DNA from: Fluviicola sp.
GTDB lineage: Bacteria; Bacteroidota; Bacteroidia; Flavobacteriales_D; Crocinitomicaceae
Direction: 5' to 3'
DNA: 64,000 nucleotides
Assembly: GCF_039596395.1 (NCBI RefSeq)
Contig: NZ_JBCNJT010000001.1
Location: forward strand, 186,001 to 250,000
Positions 3,801-40,310 of the stretch are shown here, in pieces. Every line of letters starts with the position of its first letter. The first letter of the stretch is position 1. The position numbers and the translations under genes are program-made. Below the pieces are notes generated by a model. It was not told the origin of the DNA. It made no database searches and saw nothing but the letters and a program-made list of their open reading frames with translations.

Positions 3801-6800
3801 CGGAACGTATGCGGCCAAGCAACGCAGATGGCCATGCTGGAATGACTTGCTGGCAGGTAACCCGAATTTAAGCGATCCGGCTGCGGATTACAGCAATGCG
3901 ATCCAAACGATGTGTGATGAAACATGTACCGAATACGCGGATGAATGGCTGGTAAAACTGGCTGGATGTTCCATTTCTCCTTCTATTCTGACTGCTTTGC
4001 GTCAGGACCTGATCAACTTGTGTAAAAGTGGGTGTTCTGCGAGCAATCCACAAGGATTTGCCAGCGATATGAGTGGAAACACCATCAATACCGTCCTGGC
4101 TTCTTATGGCATTGCCGAAACAGATCTGTGCAGCGAGTTATTGATCTCGGAACCTGGCCTGTACCAGAGTCCGGAATCCGTGTTTGATGAAGTACAGGTG
4201 CCTTTGGATGTCTGCGGATGTGACGCTGTGATGCAGGCACAAACGGATTTGACGGCTTACCTGGCTACAAATCCTTCGCCAGTATTGTATAGTACCGTGG
4301 AAGAAATGCTCGCACACAATACAGGCATCTCTGTCGAAGAAGCGGATCCTTTGCTTTGTGCTTGTGATAAGGTTAAGAATGATACCCAAAAGGAATATGT
4401 TTGGGAACCGGGAAATACAATCACCCAGGAGGCTCTTGATGTATTCCATTACCAAATTCCGGCGGCTTTGTCTTGCGAAGATGCAAACTGTCCGGATTGT
4501 GAAACAGTTGATGCAGCGATGGATAACCTGGAAGGAAGATTCCCCAATTTGAGCTCTTCTCCGAATTATACAGTGATTGTTACCAATTACCTGAATAATC
4601 TTTACGATAAGGACTACGACTTCTTCCAGTACCAGGATTTCTTCGCAATGTGCAATGCTGCAACTACTACGTTTTGTTCAGAAAACCCGGCAACAAAAGG
4701 ATTCCTGGACATGCTGACACTTTTGGCATACCGCGGACAGTTTACATCGGCCACACCGATTGACCTGTTTACTAACAATGCGGTATACGAATACGGAACC
4801 ATCAGTGATTACTTACCGGCACCGGGTACGGCAGATTACACCTTCTCCCTTTCCGGCACTACGGCTACATTAACTTTTGGAACCGGAAGTGAAACCTGCA
4901 CTGCAACGATTACAAATCCGGACGGTATCGACTACGCTTCGATTCTTTCCTTCGACCTGATCGGGAATAATACCCCGGGATGCAGTTCCGACCCGGAGTA
5001 CAGTTTACTGGTTACTTACCTGGATTGCGGACAAAAACGTACAGGGACCCTTACGATCAGCAGCACTTGTTTCTCTTTTTACAACTGTATTTGCGACAAT
5101 TCCGCTGTTACGCTTTGTGATGTTCCGGAACCATTGCCGCTGGAGTTCTGTTATACGAATTTACTGAGTGAATTGTACAACGCGACCATGGATACCTACG
5201 AAGTCGAATTGGCGGAAGCTTACGAACAATTCTCTGCAGAATACCTGGCAAAATGTGCCCAGGCATTCACCAGCGAAAATCTAACAATGACAGGATTCTC
5301 CAATAATTACCAATATACTCTATTCTACTACGATCAGGCAGGAAACCTGGTACGCACAGTTGCTCCTCAGGGAGTCAATATGCTGCTGCCAAGCCAGAAT
5401 GCAGCTGTAAACTACGCCCGTTTGCATGCAAATGATCTGCCAACTCCTGCTCCGCGTGTGATTCCAACCCATACCTTTGAAACGTATTACACCTACAATT
5501 CCTACGACCAGGTAGAGAGCACGGCTAATCCAGACCAGCCTGTGTCAACTGTTTATTACTATGACTTTTACGGACGTGTGGCAGCCAGTCAAAACCCCGA
5601 ACAGGCAGCGGTTAAGATGTATTCTTATGTGTTGTATGATACCCAGGGAAGACCGGTGGAATCCGGGCAGATCTGCCGAGATGTACCTGCCGTATTCCAG
5701 GGACCTCCGGGATATACGCTGAATCCTTTGACGGATGCTGAACTCAAAGCAGACGACCTGGGAGCAGCCTTTAAAGCCTGGGTCTATAACGGAGCGCGTT
5801 CTGAAGTAACCATTACCACTTATGATAAACCGCTTTCAATTACCATTGCCGCTAAATTTAAATCCGGGGTGCAGCAAAACCTGCGCCTGCGTGTGGCCAC
5901 TGTGGCTTATTTTGAGTATGTTCCGCGTCCGATACCGGCCGATTTCTTCAAGACCGGTTATACCTCCGCCATCCATTACTCCTACGATATTCACGGGAAT
6001 GTGATAGAACAACTACAGGACTTGCCTGAACTGGCTCCTGTAAAGCAGGACATCAAGTCTACGCAGTACGATTTCGAACTGATCAGCGGGAATGTGAACA
6101 AGGTAACTTACCAGGCAAACGAGGCAGACCAGTTTATTCATACTTATGATTACGATGTGGTGAATCGTTTGAGTGAAACAAGTACTTCACCGGATGGATA
6201 TACGTATTCCCGCGAAGCACATTACCAGTACTACGATTACGGCCCGCTGGCCCGCAAAGAAATCGGGGAATTGAAAGTACAGGCAGAAGATTATACCTAC
6301 ACGATCAACGGCTGGCTGAAACTGAAGAACGGGACCAAGCTGAATCCGAACTCCGATGCGGGGAAAGACGGCCGCAACGGGTATGAAACTGCCAACACGG
6401 GTGCGCATTTGAACATTCCTGCCGACGTAACGGGGTATACACTCGGTTATTTCGAAGGAGATTACAAACCGATCAGCGGCGGGCTGATGGAACTTCCTAC
6501 AGCCGGAAGTGCATTCTCTGCCAGTGCTGCCAACCTCTACAACGGGAATATCCGTTTGAGCACAACCGCCATCAAAGATGTGCAGGCAGGAAGCCCGGGG
6601 GTGAACCAGGTTGTTGGCGCCAGTTACCGCTACGACCAGCTGAACCGTCTGAAAGGCATGAAAGCCTACTTTGGATCTTTACTGGATAACGGAACGGCTT
6701 CCAATTGGAATGGAGCAACAACAAGCAATTCCTACAGTTCTGCGATCACTTATGACCGCAACGGGAACATCAAAACAATGAACAGGTATGCTTCTTCTCC

Positions 6801-26291: not shown

Positions 26292-27329
26292 TTATGTCTC
26301 CGTGTCCCTTGAGGCTCCTCCTACATACTGCTCATAAGCCAGCTTAAACCGGTTCCGGATCCGGTTTCGTAAGATCTTCGGCTTCAGCACTTCGATACAA
26401 GGCCCGAATCCTAGTATCAACCGGTCGAACTCCATATTCAAATGAACCCGCAATTGAAAGATCACGGAGCCGTCTTCGAAAGTCTTTACAAGTGTTTGGG
26501 ATTGATGGAGCGGTTTGGTAATAACGTAAGGAGCGTTTTCACGGTCAACCTTTAAGACCACGTCCATCAGCATCGAATCACCCAGAACCGTTACGCCATA
26601 AGTATCCTTATAGTACAGATCGCCGTCAAAGTCGTCATTGGAATAATCCAGGTCCAGGTCGTAATCAATTCCTGCAATACGATCCAGCGCAAACGTTACA
26701 ATGCGCGAATGTCCTTCTTTTCGTCCCACAACGAACCAGCGGTTATTGAATTGCTTCAGGATATACGGATGAAAGTGTGTTTTTGTCGGCTCGTCGGCTT
26801 TGAAAGATTGATAATTCAGGATCAAACAAATCCGCTTCACGATGGCCTGGTAAATCGTATCGAAATGCTCCAAACCTTTCAATTGTTCATTCTTATCCAA
26901 ATGAATAATGGCCAACTGATGGGTCTTTTCCACGTAAATGGTGTCCTCCAAACGCTGGATGACTCCGTTCAAATCTTGGAACAACGAAAAATTCTTGAAC
27001 TGTTTCAGCATTTCTACCGATTCATTGAGGATCGTCATGTCATTTTCCGTCAGCGGAATATTCGTAATCGAATAATCGGGATCCGAGTAGCGGTAAAAAC
27101 GTTTATCATACACTTCTATCGGGGCATTGTAACCCAGTTTGTCGCTGCGCATCAATTGAATGTCCAGCTGGGTGGTACGCAAACTCACGTTTACATCGCG
27201 TCCTTCGTATTCATAAAGTGCATCCGAACAGGCATCTACCAGGTCCTGGAGCGTCCATTGACGGTAGTTGTTCTGCAAACATTTGTCAATCGTCTTGTAG
27301 CGGATTAAAGCATTTTTATTTTGAGCCAT
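26292..27329 (-). CDS. WYL-domain transcriptional regulator
   Basis: 345 residues from the ATG at 27329, chosen because MAQNKNALIRYKTID matches the start of Bacteroidota WYL regulators and of the paralogous HTH protein at 53.8 kb. An N-terminal winged HTH (about residues 1-85, with SLRTTQLDIQLM as recognition helix region) is followed by a helical linker and the WYL domain (KRICLILNYQSFKADEP..., HPYILKQFNNRWFVVGRKEG) and a WCX-like C-terminus. WYL domains bind nucleic acid or nucleotide ligands. It is divergent from rtcB; an inverted repeat at 27471-27491 lies in the shared intergenic region and recurs at 30252, so it probably controls both units. Confidence 0.9.
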   Translation of the reverse strand: MAQNKNALIRYKTIDKCLQNNYRQWTLQDLVDACSDALYEYEGRDVNVSLRTTQLDIQLMRSDKLGYNAPIEVYDKRFYRYSDPDYSITNIPLTENDMTILNESVEMLKQFKNFSLFQDLNGVIQRLEDTIYVEKTHQLAIIHLDKNEQLKGLEHFDTIYQAIVKRICLILNYQSFKADEPTKTHFHPYILKQFNNRWFVVGRKEGHSRIVTFALDRIAGIDYDLDLDYSNDDFDGDLYYKDTYGVTVLGDSMLMDVVLKVDRENAPYVITKPLHQSQTLVKTFEDGSVIFQLRVHLNMEFDRLILGFGPCIEVLKPKILRNRIRNRFKLAYEQYVGGASRDTET

Positions 27330-27470
27330 AATATAATCTGAAAACAGGTGTTTACTAACCGCTGCGTCTATCTGCACAACGTAAATTCCGCGAAGCGAAT
27401 CTGCGTGCTAAAGACCAGTTTACGCTTATAATTTGCGACGGGAGAAAACAAAATTAAAATTTATTTTTAC

Positions 27471-27507
27471 CTACGCAAAATGATTGCGTAGTAGCTTCCA
27501 ACCTTTG
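27471..27507 (+). promoter_or_regulatory. Inverted-repeat operator plus -7 element before rtcB
   Basis: A perfect inverted repeat CTACGCAA-N5-TTGCGTAG (27471-27491) is followed after exactly 8 nt by AACCTTTG (27500-27507), close to the Bacteroidota -7 consensus TAnnTTTG. The same block with one changed base recurs at 30252-30288. Likely operator of the divergently encoded WYL protein. Confidence 0.75.
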
Positions 27508-27521
27508 TTTCATCAAAATAA

Positions 27522-28994
<1,473 letters not shown>

Positions 28995-29706: not shown

Positions 29707-29812
29707 TCCGGAGAGATAACGGTGGTTGGTTTATCCCGACGGTACCGTTGGGAAGGTCGTGGGTCCTTAGATCCTGACCACCAGCGTCAGGGTTCGAATC
29801 CCACTCTTCGGA
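29707..29812 (+). ncRNA. tRNA-Pro-like RNA 1 with 29-nt insertion and no normal anticodon loop
   Basis: Same acceptor (TCCGGAGA / TCTTCGGA), D-region and T-arm as the Pro-like gene at 29996. The anticodon loop is replaced by TCCCGA-CGGTACCG-TTGGGA, whose loop is self-complementary and has no TGG triplet. The T-arm is split after GTGGG by 29 extra bases (29764-29792) flanked by GGGT direct repeats; the insert folds as CCTGAC-7 nt-GTCAGG. Removing it restores GTGGG-TTCGAAT-CCCAC exactly. It cannot be a normal decoding tRNA as written. Confidence 0.75.
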
Positions 29813-29886
29813 CTGGTTCAGAATGTGGAACAGAAAAAGAGAAGTTAATCTCTTTCTCGCTTCGCTACCGCTATAACTTTAGCGAA
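29813..29886 (+). ncRNA. Hairpins trailing tRNA-Pro-like RNA 1
   Basis: CTgGTTC-8 nt-GAACAG (29813-29833), then AAGAGA-AGTTAA-TCTCTT (29837-29854), then TTCGCTA...TAGCGAA (29861-29886). The first two recur after the second Pro-like RNA; in the second hairpin two base pairs change on both sides, so the pairing is conserved. Confidence 0.6.
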
Positions 29887-29911: not shown

Positions 29912-29981
29912 TGTCCTGTAGTGTAATGGCAACACACAAGATTTTGGTTCTTGTACTAGAGGTTCGAATCCTTTTGGGGCA
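29912..29981 (+). tRNA. tRNA-Gln (TTG), possibly degenerate
   Basis: Cloverleaf: acceptor TGTCCTG with TTGGGGC plus discriminator A (7 bp, three G-U pairs), D-arm GTG...CAC, anticodon arm CAAGA-TTTTGGT-TCTTG (anticodon TTG), T-arm AGAGG-TTCGAAT-CCTTT. No CCA is encoded. The wobble-rich acceptor is weaker than in ordinary tRNA-Gln genes. Confidence 0.8.
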
Positions 29982-29995
29982 ACAATACATATAAA

Positions 29996-30070
29996 TCCGG
30001 AGAGATAACGGTGGTTTAGTTTACCCGTTTTGGAAACGGGAGGTCGTGGGTTCGAATCCCACTCTTCGGA
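29996..30070 (+). tRNA. tRNA-Pro (TGG)-like, copy 2
   Basis: Anticodon arm CCCGT-TTTGGAA-ACGGG gives anticodon TGG; T-arm GTGGG-TTCGAAT-CCCAC is perfect. The acceptor can pair over 8 bp (TCCGGAGA / TCTTCGGA) and the D-arm (ATAAC...GTTTA) is irregular, with unusual bases at positions 8-9. This may be a tRNA-like RNA rather than a working tRNA. Confidence 0.7.
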
Positions 30071-30117
30071 CTGGTTCAGAAGGAGGAACAGAAAAAAGGA
30101 AGTTAATCCTCTTTTCT
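30071..30117 (+). ncRNA. Hairpins trailing tRNA-Pro-like RNA 2
   Basis: CTgGTTC...GAACAG followed by AGGA-AGTTAA-TCCT. It matches the trailer of copy 1 with two compensatory pair changes in the second hairpin (A-T to G-C and G-C to A-T). Confidence 0.6.
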
Positions 30118-30134
30118 CATTCTATTCTGAAAAC

Positions 30135-30207
30135 GCGGGAATGGCGGAACGGTATACGCGCCTGATTTAGTATCAGGATTTTAAGGGTTCGAATCCCTTT
30201 TCCCGTA
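30135..30207 (+). tRNA. tRNA-Leu (TAG)-like lacking the long variable arm
   Basis: Acceptor GCGGGAA / TTCCCGT with discriminator A, D-arm GCG...CGC, anticodon arm CCTGA-TTTAGTA-TCAGG (anticodon TAG), T-arm AAGGG-TTCGAAT-CCCTT. Bacterial tRNA-Leu is class II with a long variable stem; here only about five bases lie between the anticodon arm and the T-arm. That makes normal leucylation doubtful. Confidence 0.75.
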
Positions 30208-30209
30208 CG

Positions 30210-30251: not shown

Positions 30252-30288
30252 CTACGCAAAATGATTGCGCAGATTCTTTTAACCTTTG
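30252..30288 (+). promoter_or_regulatory. Second copy of the rtcB operator/promoter block
   Basis: CTACGCAA-N5-TTGCGCAG (one mismatch from the perfect repeat before rtcB; spacer AATGA identical), then 8 nt, then AACCTTTG (30281-30288). It drives the unit holding the structured RNA elements, the Lys-like RNA and the RING/TerD gene, placing that unit in the same regulon as rtcB. Confidence 0.75.
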
Positions 30289-30398
30289 TCATGTCAAAGA
30301 AAGAGAACAGATTAAATGCTCTGAATGCTGATAAAAACAAAAGTTCTGAATAAGAATTTCTTTTCATCATTCTTGCTCTCATGCTCTTTCTGAGATGC

Positions 30399-30464
30399 CC
30401 GGGTCAAAAAGAGGTTACTTCTGTTTTAATTGAACCTTAAAAGTTTACCTCTTTGATTACCCGG
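30399..30464 (+). ncRNA. Structured RNA element A (GGTCAA/GATTACC motif)
   Basis: P1 CCGGGT/ACCCGG, internal loop CAA opposite GATT, P2 AAAGAGG/CCTCTTT (7 of 7 pairs), then TTACTTCTG and an apical hairpin TTTTAA-7 nt-TTAAAA. It ends 5 nt before the Lys-like RNA. See elements B, C and D, which share the loops but not the helix sequences. Confidence 0.75.
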
Positions 30465-30469
30465 AAAAC

Positions 30470-30592
30470 GAGATAGTAGCTCAGTTGGTAGAGCAATGGC
30501 TTTTTAGTTTTTAGATTACCGCTTAAACGGTCAATAGGAACTTACTACTTCTGTGGTTCCATGGGGCACGGGTTCGAATCCCGTCTATCTCA
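30470..30592 (+). ncRNA. tRNA-Lys-like RNA with ~50-nt insertion in the anticodon arm
   Basis: Acceptor GAGATAG/CTATCTC, bases TA, D-arm GCTC-AGTTGGTA-GAGC and T-arm ACGGG-TTCGAAT-CCCGT are all canonical. The anticodon arm starts ATGG-CTTTTTA (Lys TTT possible) but its 3' strand CCAT comes only after about 50 extra bases. The first 35 of these (30507-30541) are structured element B. Removing about 50 nt leaves a normal-length tRNA, though the exact joints are ambiguous and the pair at position 31-39 would be a mismatch. No CCA is encoded. Confidence 0.75.
30507..30541 (+). ncRNA. Structured RNA element B, circularly permuted, inside the Lys-like RNA
   Basis: P2 GTTTTTA/TAGGAAC (7 pairs, two G-U), internal loop GATT opposite CAA, P1 ACCG/CGGT closed by CTTAAA; TTACTACTTCTG follows at 30542. 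Same parts as A, C and D, but here P1 carries the closing loop and P2 is the open end. Confidence 0.7.
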
Positions 30593-30595
30593 CAA

Positions 30596-30667
30596 TTAGG
30601 TCAAAGGATGCTTACTTCATTGGTTTAACGGTTCGAGTCCGTCTTTAGAAGCTTGCTGATTACCTAA
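30596..30667 (+). ncRNA. Structured RNA element C with T-arm-like hairpin
   Basis: P1 TTAGGT/ACCTAA (6 of 6), CAA opposite GATT, P2 AGGATGC/GCTTGCT (5 of 7), TTACTTC after the P2 5' strand, and an apical hairpin ACGG-TTCGAGT-CCGT that looks like a tRNA T-arm. It starts 3 nt after the Lys-like RNA. Confidence 0.7.
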
Positions 30668-30670
30668 GGA

Positions 30671-30737
30671 AACAGGTCAATTATTTCTTACTTCTGGTGC
30701 AAGCACCACGTGATTGGATAGAAATAAGATTACCGTT
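30671..30737 (+). ncRNA. Structured RNA element D, terminator-like leader of the RING/TerD gene
   Basis: P1 AAC(a)GGT/ACCGTT, CAA opposite GATT, P2 TTATTTC/GAAATAA (7 of 7), TTACTTCTG, apical hairpin GGTGC-AA-GCACC. The right P1 strand runs directly into six T (30736-30741), 17 nt before the ATG at 30759, so the folded element could terminate transcription or hide the ribosome-binding region. Confidence 0.72.
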
Positions 30738-30758
30738 TTTTAATTAATACATATTACT

Positions 30759-32996
30759 ATGAGAAAAGAACTGACAAAAGTAGCGTTGAGACACAACGCA
30801 TTGTTCCTGGAAAATGCTTCGCAGGAGCAAAACCAGGGAAAAACCCTGAATGAAACAACCGTTGTCCTGGTGGCAAATTGCAATAAATTGGGATTCACTT
30901 TTTCGGAAAACTTGCTGGCGAAGGTTAATACCCTGACTCCAATGGCAAAATTGGAATTGCTGGAAGATCTGAAGGAAGCTGCCGGTGTCGGTAAAAACTG
31001 GATGCCTCTTGTGAAACAGTGGGATAACCCCACAGGAGAAGGTTTTTTAGACCATGTATTTACCTTCCTGGCGAATGTTTTCCAAAGCAAAAAAGGAACA
31101 AAACTGGCTTGCGGACATGTCATCCCGGAGGGAACTTTCCCGTTGGAACGATACAATGGTTGTCCTTACTGCGGAACACAATTCGAGACTTCCCTGGAGT
31201 TGGATCTGAAAGCTCCTGCAAAATTGAAAGTATTGGAATTGTGGGGTGAAAACGATTTGAAAAACCTGTTGCTGGATTTACTGAAATCACCGGTTGCTTT
31301 GGACGCTACACAAGCGGAAAGCCTGGAAATCCTGGTTGCGAATTTCGGGGTGACTGACTTTTCCGTAATCGGGATGAAAGAAACCCAGATGATCGTTATC
31401 GACGTGTATTGCGCGAAAGGAGAATCCGAGCAGGTTTCTGGCCTGTTCTCAACCCCGAACGATATCCTGCGCTATATCTGGTACAAGCATACGGGTTACC
31501 TGCAATTGGTGGAACCAAAAGTGATCCTGCGACGAAACGTAAGAAATACGCATATGTTGGGTAGAGCAATGGTTTCCGGTATCGAAAAACAGGAGAAAGA
31601 AAAACTGAAATTGAAGTTTTCGAGAACCGAATGCAAAATGTACGCGGAATGGCTGAACGGTTTGACGATGAATACCGAAGCGCAATGTGAAACCATGCAC
31701 CCGAAAAGAGAAATCTGGGTACGTGTGATCCGTGCACTGCGATTGGCTGAATACAGCAAACGAAAAGGATTCGACCGTTTGAGAACCTTGCTGGATGTTT
31801 TCTACAACGAACGTTATGTAGTGTGGAACGGGGGAGTAAACCATTTCCGCTTGAAAATGGATGCGGAGGAAACATTCCGTTTGTTGAAACAGCGTCCGGG
31901 ATTGTTTGCCAGATCTTTGTTTTCCAACATGCTTTATTTCGGAGCGGATGAAACGCTAGCAAATTTTAAGGAAGTCATGCACCAGGTTCCGGCCAGACTG
32001 ATCTACAGCCTGAATATGTATGCGGAATATTACTTCGTGAAGAACAGTTCCAGAACAGTGAAACCTTTGGGTTCCGTTTCAAAACGTGTTCCGACCAACA
32101 AATTGCTGAACCTTTACTCAAACCTGGATTTGGAGCGAATGCAGCTGAAAATCGAGGAATTGAGCCTGGAAGTAATCACCAAACGTTTGGGAGAAGTACC
32201 AAACGGGAATAAGACGATGTACATCGATGATGCTTTGTTCCGGATTCCTTTGGCTATCGGAGACCGAAGCAATCATGTCCAGGATATGATGGTAACTCCG
32301 ATGGGAACACGCTTCAAGGTGGAAGGTGAACAGGTGCGTTTGTTCATGCATTGGGGAGAAGGTCTTCCGGCGCAACACCTGGATATGGACTTGAGCTGCA
32401 GCGTTGTTTACGAGAAAGAAACAGACTATTGTTCGTTCTCGAACCTGAACACGATCGGGTGTAAGCATAGCGGCGACGTGAGAAATATCCCGGACAATGT
32501 AGGAGCAGTGGAATACATTGAACTGGACCTGGAAGAACTGGCTAAACGAGGCGCGAAATACGTGAGTTTCACTTGTAATGCTTACTCGAGAGGAAGCTTG
32601 TCTGTGAACATGAAAGTGGGATGGATGAACAGTGCATTCCCGATGGATATCCATTCCAACGGAGTGGCTTACAATCCGGGAGATGTGCAGCAGGAAGTCC
32701 GTATCAAACAAAGCCTGGATAAAGGAATGGTGTTTGGTTTGCTGGATATTGCCAACAAAGAGATCATCTGGATGGAAATGCCGTTTGGTGGACAGATCGT
32801 TCAAAATATGAATGCAGAAACCGTACTGAGCTTCCTGCGAAAGTTGGATGCAAAACTGAAAATCGGTGATGTACTCAACCTGAAAGCCGAAGTCCAGGGA
32901 TTGGAACTGGTAACCGATCCTGCGCTGGCAGATGAAGTTTACGACTTGAACTGGGCCTCCAACACTGCGAAAGTAACAGGTTTACTTTTGGGATAA
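30759..32996 (+). CDS. RING-like zinc-finger protein with TerD-like domain (MXAN_6230/SCO0854-type)
   Basis: A 745-residue soluble protein. Residues 118-140 carry a RING-like zinc ribbon (C118-x-H120 ... ERYNGC135PYC138GTQF). The C-terminal part (about 520-690) has the TerD pattern: LDMDLSCSVV, a Phe-x-Asn-Leu turn, KHSGD (569-573) and a following IELDLEELAKRGAKYVSF strand-helix-strand. This combination fits the MXAN_6230/SCO0854 family of RING-domain proteins, whose role is not established; TerD domains bind Ca2+ and belong to stress-response systems. It is transcribed from the rtcB-type operator and follows four structured RNA elements, so a role with RtcB in RNA stress is inferred. Confidence 0.75.
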   Translation: MRKELTKVALRHNALFLENASQEQNQGKTLNETTVVLVANCNKLGFTFSENLLAKVNTLTPMAKLELLEDLKEAAGVGKNWMPLVKQWDNPTGEGFLDHVFTFLANVFQSKKGTKLACGHVIPEGTFPLERYNGCPYCGTQFETSLELDLKAPAKLKVLELWGENDLKNLLLDLLKSPVALDATQAESLEILVANFGVTDFSVIGMKETQMIVIDVYCAKGESEQVSGLFSTPNDILRYIWYKHTGYLQLVEPKVILRRNVRNTHMLGRAMVSGIEKQEKEKLKLKFSRTECKMYAEWLNGLTMNTEAQCETMHPKREIWVRVIRALRLAEYSKRKGFDRLRTLLDVFYNERYVVWNGGVNHFRLKMDAEETFRLLKQRPGLFARSLFSNMLYFGADETLANFKEVMHQVPARLIYSLNMYAEYYFVKNSSRTVKPLGSVSKRVPTNKLLNLYSNLDLERMQLKIEELSLEVITKRLGEVPNGNKTMYIDDALFRIPLAIGDRSNHVQDMMVTPMGTRFKVEGEQVRLFMHWGEGLPAQHLDMDLSCSVVYEKETDYCSFSNLNTIGCKHSGDVRNIPDNVGAVEYIELDLEELAKRGAKYVSFTCNAYSRGSLSVNMKVGWMNSAFPMDIHSNGVAYNPGDVQQEVRIKQSLDKGMVFGLLDIANKEIIWMEMPFGGQIVQNMNAETVLSFLRKLDAKLKIGDVLNLKAEVQGLELVTDPALADEVYDLNWASNTAKVTGLLLG

Positions 32997-33338: not shown

Positions 33339-34640
33339 TCAAGGAAGTTTTTTATTCCGCGTAAACTGCCGCATCAATGGCAATACCACCACCATCAAAA
33401 TCGGCATGCAGAACATAATCCAGGTATTCTTGCTGGATGAAATTTCATCATCTTCCGTACACATGTAGTTGAAAAGAGCGGCTAATAAGATGAAGAATTC
33501 AATGATAAAAATAATGGACGAAGCCAAAACAATTCCCATGTTCTGGTTTAATAAATAGGAGAAGGGAGGGTAGAACAGGTATAACAGGATAATCACAACA
33601 ACGAGGCAGATCAAACCGATCAGGAACCATAAATAAGATTCCCAGTTATTATCCGGACTATCACCCATGACAACAGGCCGTATGTCTTTGACGGAAAAAT
33701 TACTCAAAGTGCCAATGTAGGAAGCCGTATCGCCGGTACTAAACTTTGCCAGGTAAAAATGGCTGTTAATCTGTGTAAACAAACTGAGATCCTGAATTTC
33801 CGAATAGCTGAAAGGATCGCCATTCACATAATAATCATCCATGATATTGGTCGGATCCAATAAGATCACATCATCTGCCATAAGGATCAACGCATACATG
33901 AAATCGTCACCGATTATATTGCGATCCTTCGGTTCATGAAAAAACAGTTTGAGCTTCATATTCCTGATTGACGGATATGTTGAAGCATCCATCACTCTGC
34001 GAATTGATTTTACGAATTGGGCCATCGCTCTTTTTTCCTTGAAATTGAAATCTGGAAAATATAAGCTGATCGTTTTGATTTTGGAACTGTCCGGTTGAAG
34101 TGCCGTGAATATGTATGAAATGGCCCGGATTACAGCTTCATCATTGGTGAGAAACCGATTGGTACGGGAAGCCCCGTTGAAACGAAAAAGAAGCCCGTCA
34201 TTTAAATTTCCGGCCCCAGCATATTCTTTGTCCTGGAATCGTTTTATGAATTGAAGGTTTTCTCCCAGTGAAAATTCCTTGATCGAAATACTGTTGGATA
34301 ATGCTCGCGGATAACGGTGGTTCCCAAAGTAATTGTAGAAGAGTTCTTTCCCGGAAACCTTGCTGAGATCCCGTAAAATACTGTCGAGGATTTTCTGGTT
34401 TTTGACCAGTTCGTTCAGCGTGATCTTTCCCTTGTAGTATTTTTTCAGGAAAGCATCCGCATTGGAGACATATACGGTGTCGTGAATGTAGATCGTGTCG
34501 AAATAAGGCTCAAAAAAGTAAGGATCTTCCAGTGCGGGAATATCCCAGGGAGCCACATAGGTTTGCCCGCGCTGTCCTTGCCCGGCCGACTGGAAAACGA
34601 TGGTAAATACGAGCAACAATCCTGCAATATAATTCTTCAT
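33339..34640 (-). CDS. Membrane protein at the end of the eCIS operon, unknown function
   Basis: A 433-residue product with a signal peptide (MKNYIAGLLLVFTIVFQSAG), an ~320-residue extracytoplasmic domain, then three hydrophobic helices (about residues 338-362, 372-395 and 407-425). The soluble part has alternating strands and helices (KIKTISLYFPDFNFKEKRAMAQFVKSIRRVM, KLKLFFHEPKD, DDVILLDPTNIMDDYY), but no known motif. The gene starts 8 bp after the AAA+ ATPase, so it is part of the operon. It could anchor assembly at the envelope or assist particle release; this is inference from position only. Confidence 0.6.
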   Translation of the reverse strand: MKNYIAGLLLVFTIVFQSAGQGQRGQTYVAPWDIPALEDPYFFEPYFDTIYIHDTVYVSNADAFLKKYYKGKITLNELVKNQKILDSILRDLSKVSGKELFYNYFGNHRYPRALSNSISIKEFSLGENLQFIKRFQDKEYAGAGNLNDGLLFRFNGASRTNRFLTNDEAVIRAISYIFTALQPDSSKIKTISLYFPDFNFKEKRAMAQFVKSIRRVMDASTYPSIRNMKLKLFFHEPKDRNIIGDDFMYALILMADDVILLDPTNIMDDYYVNGDPFSYSEIQDLSLFTQINSHFYLAKFSTGDTASYIGTLSNFSVKDIRPVVMGDSPDNNWESYLWFLIGLICLVVVIILLYLFYPPFSYLLNQNMGIVLASSIIFIIEFFILLAALFNYMCTEDDEISSSKNTWIMFCMPILMVVVLPLMRQFTRNKKLP

Positions 34641-34648
34641 TCTAGTTC

Positions 34649-35956
34649 TTAATTAACAAGTTTTCCTTCCTTCTCCAATTCCTTTTTAATCGTGTTTTTC
34701 AGCATTTCCAGGTTCAGTTTGTTCGAATGCTTCGGGTCAAAGAGTTGCAAGGCACACGATTGCACCACGTTAAGCATGCTTCCTCCCGAGAGCTTGATAA
34801 TGGCTGCTTCGCGCAACAGTTCTTCCGGGTTGTCATCCAGCCAATCCGAAGGAATCAATCGCTGCCACAGATCGTAGCGCAATTGCTGGTTCGGAACCGG
34901 GAAGTACAAAATGGATTGGAACCTGCGGAAAAAGGCTTCGTCCAGGTTGTCTTTGATGTTGGTAGCCAAAATCACCATTCCCGGGAAATCCTCAATGCGC
35001 TGCAGCAAATAAGCGACTTCCTGGTTGGCATGCCGGTCGTTGGAATCCGAGGTTTCCGTTCGCTTTCCGAATAAAGCATCGGCTTCGTCAAAAAACAGGA
35101 TCCAGTTTTGATGTTCGGCGCGGTCGAAAATCTTTGCCAGGTTTTTTTCCGTTTCCCCGATGAACTTGGAAACAACCATCGACAAATCGATCCGGTAAAC
35201 ATCCATTCCGTGCTGTTTTCCCAATAGTGAAGCCGTCAGTGTTTTCCCGGTTCCCGGCGGGCCATGGAATAAACACCGATAACCGCTTTTCAGGAATTTA
35301 TCCAGTTTCCACCGTTCCCGGATCGTACTTCCGTGTTCGAGCCATTGGGTAATTTGCTCCAGTTCTTCCTTCAAATTGTATGGAATAACCAGGTCTTCCC
35401 AGCTCAATTTGGTTTCCATGCGTCGTGCCGGAAAATCACTGCTGTAATCCGGACGGTAATTTCCATCGCGGAATACTTTTGCCAGGAATTCATCCGAAAC
35501 ACACAGTTTCCCGCTTAAATAAGGTTCTCCGGGACCCTGGCCTTCCAAACGGATTACATTTTCCTTATAAAACCAATGTTCCTGGTCAAACAGGTTTACC
35601 ACTACTTTCCGTTTTTCCGGGGAATTCAAAGCAATCAGGAAAGCAAGCGTTTCACCGGTGGGTAAAAAACCGTTGTGCGAACTTCCTTTCCAACCACCGA
35701 ATTCCGTATAGGGCCGGTCCAGGTTCTTATTCAAAATGAAGAACAGGTCCAGGCTCTGCGGGCTCACATGCGGCATTAACGCTAGCAATAAAGCTGTTTT
35801 TTCTTCCCAGCTGAGTTCTTTTCCCGTCCAGCCGGAGAGCTCCTCACTTTCCGGAAAAGGAATTTCTTCCAGCGATTGAAACTCATTTTCCTGCCCGAAA
35901 TAAAGTGCCAGCGCCGTGTGAAGCAAGGTTTGAAAGTAGTGGATGAATGCCGTCAT
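34649..35956 (-). CDS. eCIS AAA+ ATPase (Afp15/Pvc15-like)
   Basis: A 435-residue protein. Its N-terminal ~190 residues are family-specific; the AAA+ module has Walker A GPPGTGKT (232-239), Walker B ILFFDEAD (286-293), sensor-1 VILATN and an Arg-finger region AFFRRFQ. This AAA+ is a marker of extracellular contractile injection systems and is thought to act in assembly or cargo loading. It follows the DUF4157 gene by 7 bp. Confidence 0.93.
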   Translation of the reverse strand: MTAFIHYFQTLLHTALALYFGQENEFQSLEEIPFPESEELSGWTGKELSWEEKTALLLALMPHVSPQSLDLFFILNKNLDRPYTEFGGWKGSSHNGFLPTGETLAFLIALNSPEKRKVVVNLFDQEHWFYKENVIRLEGQGPGEPYLSGKLCVSDEFLAKVFRDGNYRPDYSSDFPARRMETKLSWEDLVIPYNLKEELEQITQWLEHGSTIRERWKLDKFLKSGYRCLFHGPPGTGKTLTASLLGKQHGMDVYRIDLSMVVSKFIGETEKNLAKIFDRAEHQNWILFFDEADALFGKRTETSDSNDRHANQEVAYLLQRIEDFPGMVILATNIKDNLDEAFFRRFQSILYFPVPNQQLRYDLWQRLIPSDWLDDNPEELLREAAIIKLSGGSMLNVVQSCALQLFDPKHSNKLNLEMLKNTIKKELEKEGKLVN

Positions 35957-35963
35957 TCAGAAA

Positions 35964-36494
35964 CTATTGATGGATTTGATTTGCTTTGGCGCCCATTACA
36001 TCCGCTTCGTTTTCAAGACCCGGATCATCATTGATGCTGGCATTTTCCTTCAACTGTTTCGTTGGCCGGACACGTCCTTCTTTTTGCTGGACCACATGCC
36101 AGGCTTCATGCGGAAGGTGCTTTTCCTGTCCGGGTGCCACGTGGATATCCGTTCCCTGTGCAAAGGCATGTGCCTGAAGTGCCGCCGGTTGTGAAGAATT
36201 GTAATGCACTTTTACGTCATCCATGTTTTGCCCCGATAAATTTTCAACTCCTGATTTCAGGTTGTCGGGTAAGCCTGTCTTATTCTCTTTAAGCTGGGAA
36301 GGCTCTTCTTCCTCCTCAGCAGCCAGTTGAGCGGTTTCAAACTTTCCCTGAACAGGCTCTTCTTCTTCCATGGATGCCAGTTGTGCTGTTCCTTTTTTGT
36401 AAGCCTGAAGAATGGAACCTTCGTTTGCCTGGTTTTTAGCCTTTGCCTGAACAGAAGGACTGTTTACCTGTTTTGCGTTTGCATGTGTTTTCAT
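35964..36494 (-). CDS. DUF4157 protein, probable eCIS cargo
   Basis: The 176-residue product carries the DUF4157 domain (about residues 80-170: NLSGQNMDDVKVHYNSSQPA, AFAQGTDIHVAPGQEKHLPHE, LENEADVMG), including the zinc-metallopeptidase-like HEAWH (129-133) and the Glu of ENEAD. DUF4157 proteins are regular members of eCIS loci and are treated as effectors or maturation proteases. Residues 15-38 (VQAKAKNQANEGSILQAYKK...) match residues 16-39 of the nuclease encoded just upstream. Acidic repeats (SMEEEEP, AAEEEEEP) separate the two parts. Confidence 0.88.
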   Translation of the reverse strand: MKTHANAKQVNSPSVQAKAKNQANEGSILQAYKKGTAQLASMEEEEPVQGKFETAQLAAEEEEEPSQLKENKTGLPDNLKSGVENLSGQNMDDVKVHYNSSQPAALQAHAFAQGTDIHVAPGQEKHLPHEAWHVVQQKEGRVRPTKQLKENASINDDPGLENEADVMGAKANQIHQ

Positions 36495-36509
36495 AAGCGT
36501 TGTTTTTTA

Positions 36510-37328
36510 TTACCACAAATGGACTCCTCCATTGTGACCGTGTTTTTGATGAACGAGCATATTTACCAATACCATTTTATACTTGTCTTTCAAATGGTGC
36601 CACGTCCATTTCGATTTTCTGTAATTGGTTACCTGGGATGCCTTTGCAGTGGCTCCGAACTTGGTTTTCGCCAATAAGTGATCCCCGATCGCGAAGTGCT
36701 GTGCCCGGTCTTTGGTGTTGATCGTTTTCCCTGCTTTGGATAATTCTACTTCGGTTCCGGGGTCTACCGGATTTGCCCATGCTGTGGGTACGCCATGAGT
36801 AGTACTAAAATCAATGCAGCCTTTATCGTCCGTTTTGTAGGCAACATCCTTGTAAGCGCCGTAACTTTTCGGACCGGAAACTACATTGGGTTTTCTAGCG
36901 AATTGTGTAATACTTTTTTCTTCAATGTACTGATCAATGGCCTTTTCATCTTCATGGTTTTCCAGACCCTGATGATCTGCCCAATTGACAGCTTCCTCAT
37001 CCTCTTCAGAAACGTCTGAACTTTCTTCGGTTCCCCTGAAATCACCATCCAGAAATTTGTTGATGATTTCCTGCAAACGATCTTCGTACCCTCTGTTTTT
37101 AAGGAATAAGATCAGTGAATCCATGTCTTCAGAGGTTTTTAACCGGGTTTCAGACAAGACTTTTGAAATAGATCTCGTGATCGGTTTTTGCTGGATCACA
37201 CCGCCGGATATCTGGGACGTACTTGTTTTGTAAGCCTGAAGGATGGTTCCTTCTTCTGCCTGGTTTTGCGCTTTCGGCTGAACCATTGAATCCTTCCCGG
37301 AATGGATATGTCGGTTAGTTATCTTCAT
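36510..37328 (-). CDS. Probable eCIS cargo nuclease, WHH-type HNH/Endo VII fold
   Basis: This 272-residue protein ends in W-x-WHH (243-245) ... M-V-L-V (252-255) ... H260 ... H265-N-GG ... W272, the arrangement of the WHH branch of HNH/Endonuclease VII toxin domains that cleave nucleic acid. The region before it (about 160-235: CIDFSTTHGVPTAWANPVDPG, HFAIGDHLLAKT) is probably a linker or pre-toxin domain. Residues 16-39 repeat the leader of the DUF4157 neighbour (NQAEEGTILQAYK). It sits between the tape measure and DUF4157 genes, where eCIS effectors are usually found. No immunity gene is apparent. Confidence 0.8.
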   Translation of the reverse strand: MKITNRHIHSGKDSMVQPKAQNQAEEGTILQAYKTSTSQISGGVIQQKPITRSISKVLSETRLKTSEDMDSLILFLKNRGYEDRLQEIINKFLDGDFRGTEESSDVSEEDEEAVNWADHQGLENHEDEKAIDQYIEEKSITQFARKPNVVSGPKSYGAYKDVAYKTDDKGCIDFSTTHGVPTAWANPVDPGTEVELSKAGKTINTKDRAQHFAIGDHLLAKTKFGATAKASQVTNYRKSKWTWHHLKDKYKMVLVNMLVHQKHGHNGGVHLW

Positions 37329-37400
37329 ATTGTTCCTTTAAACTTCGTCCTTTTAAACTTTTACTTTTCACATTTACCTTTTTACCATTTACCTTTTAAA

Positions 37401-40310
37401 TTACCTCCACTTCACCTGAAGCCCTTTTTGCATCCAGCTGAATTTGATCGTCCGGAAATTCCAGGGGACATGATCCAGCAACATATCATAACCTTTCGCC
37501 TCAACGGTTAATAAAAAAGTATCTTCCAGTTCTTCCAACCTTCCTTCCCGGCGAAGAAATCCTTCCTGCAAACCGGCAATGGACGTGTTTGCCAAACGTC
37601 CCCAATTTTGCAGTACGCCTTCCAGCATTCCGTCCACCGTTTGTTTGTCTTCATCGGTCAAAACAGATATCCGGGGAATGGGAATCCCGGTTTTGAACCG
37701 GGTCAGGAGTTTATTCAGTTGCAGGGCATATTCGGGGAATTCCCCGTCGCCGAAAACTGCGTATTGTGTTAGGAAAATAGCTTTGATCTGTGCGTCGCGG
37801 TCCCTGAATTTTCCGTTCTCCGTGAGTTCCAGCATGCTAAACAATCGCGGGAGGAATGGAGCCAGGAGCACCAAACCTGCATTGTCTATAAACTGGACTT
37901 TTTTCCCGGTTTCTTCTTCAACTGCTTCTTCCGGCAACTCTTCTTCGTCCATAGCTTCCTCAGCCAGGGCTTCTTTTTGTGCAGCAATCAGTTCCGGATC
38001 TTTTTCGAGCAGGATGCTTAATTGCTTTAAAAGGATTCCGGGTTCATTCGGACTCATGAGTTCTTTTACCAACTGAACTTTTTGAGCACGTGTGAGACTC
38101 TTCTGGATGAGGTTCCAGACTTCAGCCATTAATTCGCGCTGACTGCGGTGTGTGGCGTTTTTGGAGAACCTGAAAATTGTTTGCAGCAAGAATTGGTTAT
38201 TAATGCGCACGTTCCATTTGCGCTGGATAAAATCAACGATCCGTTTGGCAGCATCGAGGATCGGTGAAAGGAAATCCATCCACTCTAAATCCTGGGAAAT
38301 TGCATTGATCATCGGCATGTTTTGCGCATTTTCAGTGAAATAGTGTACCAATAATTTCCTGTTTTCCAGTTGCTTTTTCGAATAGGATTTCAGCCTTTCT
38401 GTTCGGTAAGTGTCACCCGGTTCGATCTTCAACCGGATGGAAGACAGGGTCTTAAACAGGTTAAAAGGTAAGGAGAAATTTGAATTTCTGAAATCCAGGT
38501 AGAAATAATCGATCAATTGGTTTAAAGTGAGGTTGTAATGTGCTCCTGTTTTCTCTAAAATGCGCCGAACAATGTGTTCCTGGTTGAAAACCTGGCCTTG
38601 CACTTCTTCCAGTACGTCGAAGAGGAAACTCCATTTCAGCCGTTGAATGGAACCGATGGTACGGCCTTCTATTTTCGCATCTTTTCCGGAATGGTTCAGC
38701 ACGTACATGAATGCAGATAGTTCAATGGCTTTGGAAGGAAGAATAATGGCCAGCAAACGGTGTCTTGCCGATTCTCCCAGGCGGTCCAGCAGCAATTCAC
38801 GGAAAAGCAATGAACTTAATTTCGTTTTTAATTCCCGCAGCTGGTCCTTGCTCAGTTTCGTTCGTTTCTCCAGCAATTGAAGCTGAAAATTGATGGAATC
38901 GAAGGTCCTGGTTTGTTCGGATTTGGGTTTCCCCTGAACCAGTTCCAGGTAAAACTGTTGAATGATTTCCCGCAGCCCGTGGTGAATTTTCCACGTGCCG
39001 GTTTCGTTGTAGGCAAAGGTGATGATTTGCCAGATTTCAATGTTGTAGCGGGCGGAAAGCCGTTTGAAAACCTGCCAGACCAAATACTCCCGGTTAACTG
39101 CCGGACTTTTGGAAAGCGCCAGGATAGGAAGGATAACCTGCCACTTGAACAGCAGGAATTCACCGCTTGATTTTCCCTGCAGGGCTCCGCTTTGATGCTG
39201 TTTGTTTAAATGTTGTGCGTATTCGATCACGAACGTTGCATCTGAAGGAACGAGTAAACGCACCAGGTCGAAAATTTCCGTTTCGCGAAGTGGTTTGATG
39301 ATCTGAAGCACGTTTTTTTCGTTCTCGAGTAAAACGCGTAATTGGTCCAACTCATTTTCATGCAGTTTGATTGCCCGCCCGGAAGCTTTCATTTCACGCA
39401 GGATGTGCGGCCATTCATCCGGTTTCTGCACGCGAAGCGCCATAAACGAGGTTGTTTCTTCCTGCTTCAGTTCATTCAGAATAAGCTGCAAACCCGAAGG
39501 AATAACACTTCCGAATCCTTTTTCCAATAAGAAAGTAAGCGTTTTCAGCAGTTCTCTGTAACTCACATTGATGTGCGAAGCCAGGTTCCCGATGGTTTCC
39601 CGGACAAACAATTTTTTATTGAACGTAGCGCTCTGGTTGCTCAGCAAATACCCGTAAACGACTTTCCAGATGACCACTCTTCGTTCTTCTTCCCGGATCG
39701 CTATGTTGGGAATTTCGGCATATTTGACCCGTAAAAAAGTGATATACGACCGGATGAACGAAAATTCAGACGGTGCAATGAGTTTTACGGTGTCGAACAA
39801 ACTGGCATCTTCAAACTGGTAAATCATGCGGTGCTGCAAACTGGTGAAATGCCCGTAGGATTTCAGAAAAGAGCTCAATTCCTTGGTACGGTTTTTCAAT
39901 ACCTGCCGGAACAATTCCGTGATATTGCCAAAGCGTCTCGCCAGGTTCCAGTTCATGGTTCCGTGCAATAGAAACTGCTTCAGTGCTTCGAACTGATAAT
40001 CCGCTTCTTCTAACCGTTTGTCTTCTTTTTTTGCAGGATAAAGGATCTCTTTCAACAAGCTTTCCTCCAGTTTTTCTTCCAGTATCCGCTCGAAATCCTG
40101 CTCAAAGTCTTCTTCCGGGATGTTTCCCAGGTCAATGTCCAGCCTGGAAATCTCGATTTCAAACCCGTATTGGTCGCAACGCATTAACACGCGATCGGCC
40201 ACAGCCGTAATGTGCTTCTCGGCGAAAAGCTCAAAATCGCGGTACCAGTTCTGAACGAACGATTCGTTACTGGCAGTTACATGGAGCGATATGGACGAAA
40301 TACCATTCAT
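37401..40310 (-). CDS. eCIS tape measure protein
   Basis: The 969-residue protein is largely helical and begins with the conserved head of Bacteroidota eCIS tape measure proteins (SISLHVTASNESFVQNWYRD, then a CDQYGFEIEISRLDIDLGNI beta segment). Tandem helical modules in the rest repeat the pattern 'LVRLL.PS...FV..Y...L' (for example LIAPSEFSFIRSYITFL, LLVPSDATFVIEYAQHL, ILPSKAIELSAFMYVL). It should set tube length. Its ATG overlaps the stop of the 656-residue baseplate-type gene (ATGA). Confidence 0.85.
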   Translation of the reverse strand: MNGISSISLHVTASNESFVQNWYRDFELFAEKHITAVADRVLMRCDQYGFEIEISRLDIDLGNIPEEDFEQDFERILEEKLEESLLKEILYPAKKEDKRLEEADYQFEALKQFLLHGTMNWNLARRFGNITELFRQVLKNRTKELSSFLKSYGHFTSLQHRMIYQFEDASLFDTVKLIAPSEFSFIRSYITFLRVKYAEIPNIAIREEERRVVIWKVVYGYLLSNQSATFNKKLFVRETIGNLASHINVSYRELLKTLTFLLEKGFGSVIPSGLQLILNELKQEETTSFMALRVQKPDEWPHILREMKASGRAIKLHENELDQLRVLLENEKNVLQIIKPLRETEIFDLVRLLVPSDATFVIEYAQHLNKQHQSGALQGKSSGEFLLFKWQVILPILALSKSPAVNREYLVWQVFKRLSARYNIEIWQIITFAYNETGTWKIHHGLREIIQQFYLELVQGKPKSEQTRTFDSINFQLQLLEKRTKLSKDQLRELKTKLSSLLFRELLLDRLGESARHRLLAIILPSKAIELSAFMYVLNHSGKDAKIEGRTIGSIQRLKWSFLFDVLEEVQGQVFNQEHIVRRILEKTGAHYNLTLNQLIDYFYLDFRNSNFSLPFNLFKTLSSIRLKIEPGDTYRTERLKSYSKKQLENRKLLVHYFTENAQNMPMINAISQDLEWMDFLSPILDAAKRIVDFIQRKWNVRINNQFLLQTIFRFSKNATHRSQRELMAEVWNLIQKSLTRAQKVQLVKELMSPNEPGILLKQLSILLEKDPELIAAQKEALAEEAMDEEELPEEAVEEETGKKVQFIDNAGLVLLAPFLPRLFSMLELTENGKFRDRDAQIKAIFLTQYAVFGDGEFPEYALQLNKLLTRFKTGIPIPRISVLTDEDKQTVDGMLEGVLQNWGRLANTSIAGLQEGFLRREGRLEELEDTFLLTVEAKGYDMLLDHVPWNFRTIKFSWMQKGLQVKWR

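Follow-up and report, generated by a model that had tools for sequence, protein, structure and literature searches.

The 64,000-nucleotide (nt) stretch of Fluviicola sp. analysed here (the window; contig NZ_JBCNJT010000001.1 of assembly GCF_039596395.1) carries four copies, designated A to D, of a structured RNA motif just upstream of a gene for a 745-amino-acid (745-aa) protein with RING, Ro60/TROVE-like and TerD parts, in a locus that also encodes a WYL-domain regulator and an RtcB RNA ligase. By analogy, the RNAs most likely work like Y RNAs, and a probability of about two thirds is given to the copies serving the product of the adjoining downstream gene as Y-RNA-like scaffolds. Coupling of the RNAs to this gene was constant in the loci examined. 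An RNA structure was established through covariation in alignments of relatives, and transfer RNA (tRNA) parts were recognised in the RNAs by their sequence.

All four elements lie on the plus strand where the initial annotation had placed them. The consensus consists of an outer helix, GGT, CAA, a seven-nucleotide strand (N7), TTACTTC, a head, a single A, the complementary strand (N7'), RATT, ACC and the return of the outer helix. This order, found in A, C and D, is called P-type here, and that of B, in which N7' comes first, I-type. Element A (30397..30464) has its GGTCAA at 30402, a small head and a GATTACC end, and its N7 helix (AAAGAGG / CCTCTTT) displayed 7/7 pairs. Element D (30670..30739), the closest to the gene, also displayed 7/7 pairs (TTATTTC / GAAATAA) and scored 63.4 bits with covariance model R1, being itself one of its 20 rows. 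Element C (30596..30667) forms 5/7 pairs (AGGATGC / GCTTGCT), and its orthologue in genome G007 (locus L057) 7/7. These recounts agreed with the pairings first reported for A, C and D. C further carries a T-arm, CGGTTCGAGTCCG, that had been overlooked (GGTTCGAGTCC, with TTGG upstream). Element B (30507..30548) is circularly permuted, as had been proposed: N7' GTTTTTA, GATTACC, a loop, GGTCAA, N7 TAGGAAC and TTACTAC follow one another, and the two strands pair 7/7 counting G-U. Its tRNA setting had been missed, namely a match to the Rfam tRNA family (RF00005, 57.9 bits, 30470..30592, plus strand) with ~50 extra bases in the anticodon arm, which represents a tRNA gene or tRNA mimic. ARAGORN made no tRNA call on this B-bearing gene.

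The exact pattern GGTCAA-N7-TTACTTC occurred three times in the 4.6-Mb genome, every time at this locus. Allowing one mismatch, B and nine scattered others were retrieved genome-wide (14 for a reversed-pattern control), and at two mismatches the pattern was not rare within the window (five found, a number reached by 9 of 100 shuffles). Three genomes of the same genus, G001, G007 and G013, displayed similar clusters of the pattern, again flanked by tRNA genes on one side and the downstream gene on the other. The 745-aa protein was encoded in eight of 240 genomes of the family, the window's included, and copies were present upstream in all eight. A profile derived from the alignment of these eight proteins retrieved 389 relatives from genome contigs; the counts on 80 loci given here concern the best 80 of these 389, at least five of which coincide with loci from the family search. 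They belonged to Flavobacterium, Saprospiraceae, Cytophagales, Aquimarina, Hymenobacter and others, one being labelled Chlorobi. GTCAA-N7-TTACT was found upstream of the gene in 79 of the 80, with one to eight copies per locus, 350 in total and none on the minus strand; the contig of the 80th locus starts inside the gene. To avoid selection by closeness, 296 genomes were also sampled evenly across the phylum; these provided seven full-length homologues besides the window's, all preceded by three to six copies on the same strand. Homologues with copies were also located on plasmids of Hymenobacter volaticus (54% identity) and Segatella hominis (45%), and Prevotella sp. oral taxon 299 displayed one copy. 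In Tenacibaculum sp. M341 (L072), where the gene lies at 3904, eight copies occupied the upstream region between ~1.66 and 0.13 kb from it; by eye, a palindrome-like part and a D-type copy seemed to form a tandem block with a spacing of 320-440 nt.

A covariance model of D (20 sequences, including those of the window, G001 and G007) was run on 59 related genomes, and scores above 50 bits were obtained in G000, G001, G007 and G013, the genomes in which the gene was known to occur. A match in G054 (28.7 bits, E 0.004) was attributed to chance: it reads AGTCAA, has no clear right arm, and no RING homologue was found in that genome. Lone left-arm matches in related genomes devoid of the gene were likewise discarded, being unclustered and at the level of the reversed-pattern control. 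The annotation was not refuted by its own check, as further copies with compensatory changes do exist in related genomes, and covariation tests over these relatives support its proposal of a covarying RNA family including a circularly permuted member.

The search pattern dictated most letters of GGTCAA, TTACTTC and RATTACC, so that their invariance there does not count as independent evidence; such evidence comes instead from the presence of the pattern in 79 of the 80 loci and from an A directly 5' of N7', overlooked in the initial annotation, that no pattern required. Among elements forming six or more pairs, this A was displayed by 162 of 168 of P-type and 66 of 67 of I-type, and its near-fixation in both favours treating the two topologies as one motif. 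Among 373 left arms from 81 loci, 193 had a 7/7 partner, compared to a mean of 51 (maximum 63) for re-dealt left arms and of 5 (maximum 10) when the letters of N7 were shuffled; this count was made without dereplication, and Flavobacterium loci are both numerous and related. When right arms were chosen blind to pairing, 200 of the 373 left arms were usable, 147 having no right motif and 26 with several being dropped. Dereplication at 80% identity left 44 rows, whose covariation score was 0.520 versus 0.201 in shuffled rows (0/500 shuffles) and at most 0.195 with slid partners. The number of pairs changed on both sides, 13 in this pairing-blind test, was unremarkable, being attained in 148 of 500 shuffles. 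A set of 63 elements dereplicated in the same way, and selected for at least 5/7 pairs, displayed five or six standard pair types at each inner pair. The outer helix covaries as does the 7-base-pair (bp) helix. Together the 5' and 3' ends thus form a basal stem with an internal loop, the arrangement known from YrlA RNAs. In one locus (L119), a P-type element is nested within the insert of a tRNA-like gene.

More distant homologues were encountered in phages. Rhodococcus phage Weasels2 encodes one with 25% identity over 56% of the query, immediately followed, rather than preceded, by four diverged copies. All four displayed N7-TTACTTC and A-N7' with six or seven pairs, and their internal loops diverge (ATTAA, CTCAA or CTTAA facing GCTCA or GCTCG). 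The Bacteroidota-based model recovered three of them (E 0.004, 0.02 and 0.76). Inspected by eye, the third element contains an anticodon loop (CTCTTAA), a T-arm, an ATAT-closed acceptor stem and a D-arm between the arms, and on this basis it is classified as a circularly permuted, near-complete tRNA. This phage combines tRNAs, the RING/Ro60-like homologue, the four Y-like RNAs and RtcB in ~9 kb (L156 1529-10616). Lactobacillus phage LpeD carries two elements with six pairs each just upstream of its homologue. Eight phage and plasmid loci were scanned with loose structural criteria, which returned many chance matches, and only copies adjoining the gene with an exact TTACTTC were retained; of the TTACTTC occurrences, four of four on the plus strand of Weasels2 qualified, none of two on its minus strand and two of two in LpeD, against a background of five of 20 in the window outside the locus. 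Elements of this kind were not found beside the Variovorax or Streptomyces homologues, nor, with an exact TTACTTC, beside those of RcXuper and MT835874. RtcR is an activator of RNA repair operons, and the distant homologue of Variovorax sp. SRS16, annotated as RING finger family 4, lies three small genes from rtcR (L154 1642-6848). Among viral contigs of IMG/VR, 56 stretches with the pattern were collected, and tblastn identified none of them as a relative.

tRNA-like features were not limited to B and C. Considering the 157 unique P-type elements that form six or more pairs, a T-arm motif (GGTTCGA or GGTTCAA..CC) was present in 60, two of which span a neighbouring element. In some of these copies, the T-arm was followed by a short closed hairpin (for instance CTCTC GAAA GAGAG) and a TTGGTT segment, resembling an acceptor stub and a D-loop; other copies displayed ATTGGT 5' of the T-arm. 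A tRNA-like domain with T, acceptor and D parts thus characterises a subset, with full arms in B and, by eye, in Weasels2 element 3. No tRNA-like arms were seen in A and D. When the insert of I-type genes was removed, a 5-bp anticodon stem and U33 were restored in 27 of 40 unique genes, compared to a mean of 13.9 (maximum 19) with re-dealt 3' halves and 7.1 (maximum 13) with shuffled letters. Two of the 40 were not evaluable, and five more I-type elements were skipped for want of a D-stem/T-arm pattern. Restored loops were CTTTTAA (ten), CTTCTAA (five) and twelve others found once each, carried by mostly similar tRNA bodies. The 5' linker measured two or three nt in 21 of the 27 (range 1-7), and the 3' linker, which separates TTACTTC and exon, one or two nt in 23 (range 0-6); the implied insert site was after tRNA position 28 in 20 genes, after 29 in three, after 30 or 31 in two and after 37 in two. 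From these features, I-type elements are probably tRNA mimics with a side arm rather than precisely spliced tRNAs.

The 745-aa protein (30759..32996, plus strand) contains a RING part (residues 117-141), a helical Ro60/TROVE-like domain (~160-500) and TerD (~520-690). NCBIfam model NF041916 (RING_SCO0854) aligned over residues 8-679 with 133.9 bits, below its cut-off of 600, so that by sequence the protein is placed as a distant relative, not a member, of RING_SCO0854. Prok-RING_4 was detected in all 39 homologues considered at E<=1, the window protein scoring 18.3 bits against a cut-off of 27. The TROVE sequence profile did not match the 745-aa protein. Its middle domain was modelled with a predicted local distance difference test score (pLDDT) of 86.3, and a structure search with this model retrieved TROVE/Ro60 entries as seven of the top eight (246-275 of 351 residues, root mean square deviation 5.7-6.5). 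The idea of a Y RNA predated this search. Plain Foldseek gave no Ro60 among the 50 matches listed for the same domain. ABC-transporter matches from sequence searches of solved structures were weak (E 0.27 and 0.005) and taken as chance. Ro60/TROVE proteins are characterised by a closed ring of HEAT-like helical repeats; for the middle domain, a Ro60-like fold is considered moderately supported.

The initial annotation had stated that the motif matches no known class, and this stands in part. Rfam 15 assigned no family to A, C or D at gathering score, and within the RNA region only tRNA exceeded the cut-off, B being matched in this way; no model of a known self-cleaving ribozyme or riboswitch reached its cut-off on the elements. 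Under a relaxed E<=5, only sub-threshold overlaps were obtained, such as IRE_I on D (19.7 bits versus 34, E 0.27) and snR63 reaching into A; IRE_I and similar overlaps were taken as chance. The YrlA model (RF02553) was not among the window matches at E<=5, and on locus L059 it scored 15.9 bits versus a cut-off of 69, which is chance level. The part that did not stand concerns the architecture, which is that of YrlA-type bacterial Y RNAs, and the gene context, the middle domain of the RING-TerD protein appearing Ro60-like. The family is unlisted in Rfam 15, and some members may already stand described in the bacterial Y RNA literature.

According to a review (PMC8394870), YrlA RNAs have a large basal stem and D, T and acceptor arms, and in certain bacteria their genes share an operon with rtcA-rtcB; comparable parts are described for the Salmonella rsr-yrlBA-rtcBA operon (PMC7790460), and TROVE proteins beside tRNAs and RNA ligases for some jumbo phages (PMC7824862). 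The YrlA consensus was taken from the Rfam alignment at the chance-level match, the match itself not being used, and reads stem, CUA x UAUG loop, stem, T-arm, closed acceptor hairpin, UA and D-arm. The RNAs presented here share the end-to-end stem and an internal loop of 3x4 bases, and many copies follow the YrlA order of T-arm, closed acceptor and D part. Like those of rsr-yrlBA-rtcBA operons, they are encoded near RtcB and a protein that is a candidate for the Ro60 type. In contrast to YrlA, they are not matched by RF02553 at cut-off, occur in one to eight copies per locus, display UUACUUC...A in the top of the stem, include one copy within an ordinary-order tRNA gene and in the window neighbour WYL instead of RtcR; their partner is a RING/Ro60-like/TerD fusion invisible to the TROVE profile. 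On present profiles, the RNAs are thus not members of Rfam YrlA as defined, nor is the partner protein a TROVE protein by sequence.

A scaffold of this kind might operate as follows. Each RNA possesses a GGU/ACC basal stem, an internal loop in which CAA faces RAUU, and a 7-bp helix whose sequence is free, with UUACUUC opposite the single A at its top. The head is variable: short hairpins in A and D, a tRNA elbow made of T-arm and a GG D-loop-like segment in C and others, and a whole tRNA body in B. B and the others have a common architecture and differ in where it is opened. In B the opening is at the acceptor end, giving an ordinary-order tRNA gene with the stem in its anticodon arm, and in A, C and D it is at the basal stem, like YrlA. 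The Ro60-like domain would bind the stem, and the tRNA-like heads might gate that domain, attract enzymes of tRNA metabolism or serve as decoys for nucleases that cut anticodons. The WYL regulator would govern RtcB and this ribonucleoprotein (RNP) jointly upon tRNA damage. If this is correct, RNPs of Ro60/Y-RNA type reach Bacteroidota and further phages under a protein invisible to the TROVE profile, with up to eight RNAs per locus. The occurrence of an ordinary-order tRNA gene beside its circular permutation would bear on the origin of tRNA-like Y RNAs from tRNA genes. Because RtcB is a frequent neighbour, accompanied in some loci by reserve tRNAs and WYL, it would become testable whether Y RNAs take part in repairing tRNA damage, and the many Flavobacterium species carrying the locus, among them F. 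johnsoniae (strain CI04, locus L123), would be usable for such tests.

Other explanations were considered. Archaea and algae have permuted and intron-containing tRNA genes, which the present ones resemble by their reversed halves around a closed acceptor, their anticodon-arm insert and the adjoining RtcB-type ligase; they differ in that no bulge-helix-bulge of the archaeal type was seen here by eye, linkers vary somewhat and many copies lack a complete tRNA. The motif could then be a splicing signal: the B-type insert would excise itself or be removed by an endonuclease, RtcB would join the halves, and permuted copies would yield circular RNAs. Restoration of the anticodon stem and U33 well above both control means, an implied insert position that shifts while the restored arm stays canonical, the neighbouring RtcB and the permuted tRNA of Weasels2 all fit this explanation, which is nevertheless judged improbable: similar tRNA bodies bear different anticodon loops in relatives, the stem would form equally in the unspliced RNA, within a three-way junction, neither A nor D contains a tRNA exon, and B of the window restores only 4/5 anticodon-stem pairs. 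The variation in linker length, narrow in most cases, weighs only mildly against a precise site. It is rather improbable that B-type genes are real interrupted bacterial tRNA genes and P-type copies their permuted sisters, with the CAA x RAUU and UUACUUC x A motifs marking cleavage sites and RtcB joining the ends into working tRNAs and small circular RNAs; were it so, protein-dependent or ribozyme-plus-RtcB splicing, held by a Ro60-like protein, would exist in bacteria and phages.

The copies might also constitute a cis-acting leader, that is, tandem sensors of tRNA fragments or of the protein itself in the 5' untranslated region, controlling the RING gene. Such a leader would have to be reconciled with the downstream position of the four Weasels2 copies and with acceptor, D and T arms that would be needless in it, and it is held unlikely, even if copies in Bacteroidota lie upstream on the coding strand, in most cases no more than 800 nt from the gene, and a palindrome precedes the first of them in about half of the loci. 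Autoregulation by the bound protein would be compatible with a Y-RNA-like scaffold too. A self-cleaving ribozyme class with permuted forms, like the hammerhead, is very improbable, and the hint at a ribozyme in the cleavage assays proposed by the initial annotation found no support. It would account for conserved unpaired bases, covarying stems and two permutations, and RtcB joins ends of the kind such ribozymes leave; the conserved bases fit a protein site as well, however, no Rfam ribozyme reached its cut-off and coupling to a single protein gene would be atypical.

Upstream of the RNAs, the window encodes a WYL/WCX-domain transcription regulator on the minus strand (26292..27377; Pfam WYL 3.7e-14, WCX 4.3e-13), which is a candidate regulator of the locus, and the RtcB RNA ligase on the plus strand (27576..28994; Pfam RtcB 1.7e-35). 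The gap between the two genes contains a palindrome, TACGCAAAATGATTGCGTA (27472..27490), as a candidate operator. A second copy differing at one base (30253..30271) is located ~125 nt upstream of A and may be the operator of the RNA/RING unit; by sequence, the WYL-rtcB gap and the RNA/RING region thus have the palindrome in common. These were the only two sites in the window for TACGCA-N7-TGCGYA at up to one mismatch, and none of 100 shuffles had as many. In 42 of 81 loci, the palindrome was found within 350 nt upstream of the first copy, versus 34 matches in 580,727 nt downstream of gene starts. A relative of this RtcB was present in 42 and one of this WYL regulator in 52 of the 80 loci (flanks were of unequal length). 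In many Flavobacterium loci, RtcB was distant (~30%) and located downstream.

Three tRNA genes called by both ARAGORN and Rfam lie on the plus strand between rtcB and the RNAs: tRNA-Gln (ttg; 29912..29983), tRNA-Pro (tgg; 29997..30071) and tRNA-Leu (tag; 30135..30208). ARAGORN, run on 30 of the 80 loci, called at least four tRNA genes in ten and none in 20, and the tRNA array is considered optional because of these 20. A stress-induced tRNA operon with rtcB under TrcR is described in Anabaena (PMC10272220), and similarly combines reserve tRNA genes and rtcB under one repressor tied to translational stress; unlike here, TrcR is a ribbon-helix-helix protein, and the main text of that report mentions no WYL, RING or Y RNA. 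At 29707-29812, the window contains a tRNA-Pro-like copy of the 29997-30071 gene whose anticodon region is altered and longer and whose T-arm includes additional bases (a CCTGAC...GTCAGG hairpin); on this copy there was no ARAGORN or Rfam gathering-score call. Both tRNA-Pro-like copies are followed 3' by a repeated spacer (CTGGTTCAGAA..GGAACAGAAAAA..GAAGTTAATC; 29813-29859 and 30072-30118). Beyond the 745-aa protein gene, the minus strand of 33339-40310 encodes an AAA ATPase, small proteins and a 969-aa protein. By eye, the small proteins resemble what we take to be DUF4157-type proteins of contractile injection loci, and this impression suggests that the region is perhaps part of a contractile injection cluster.
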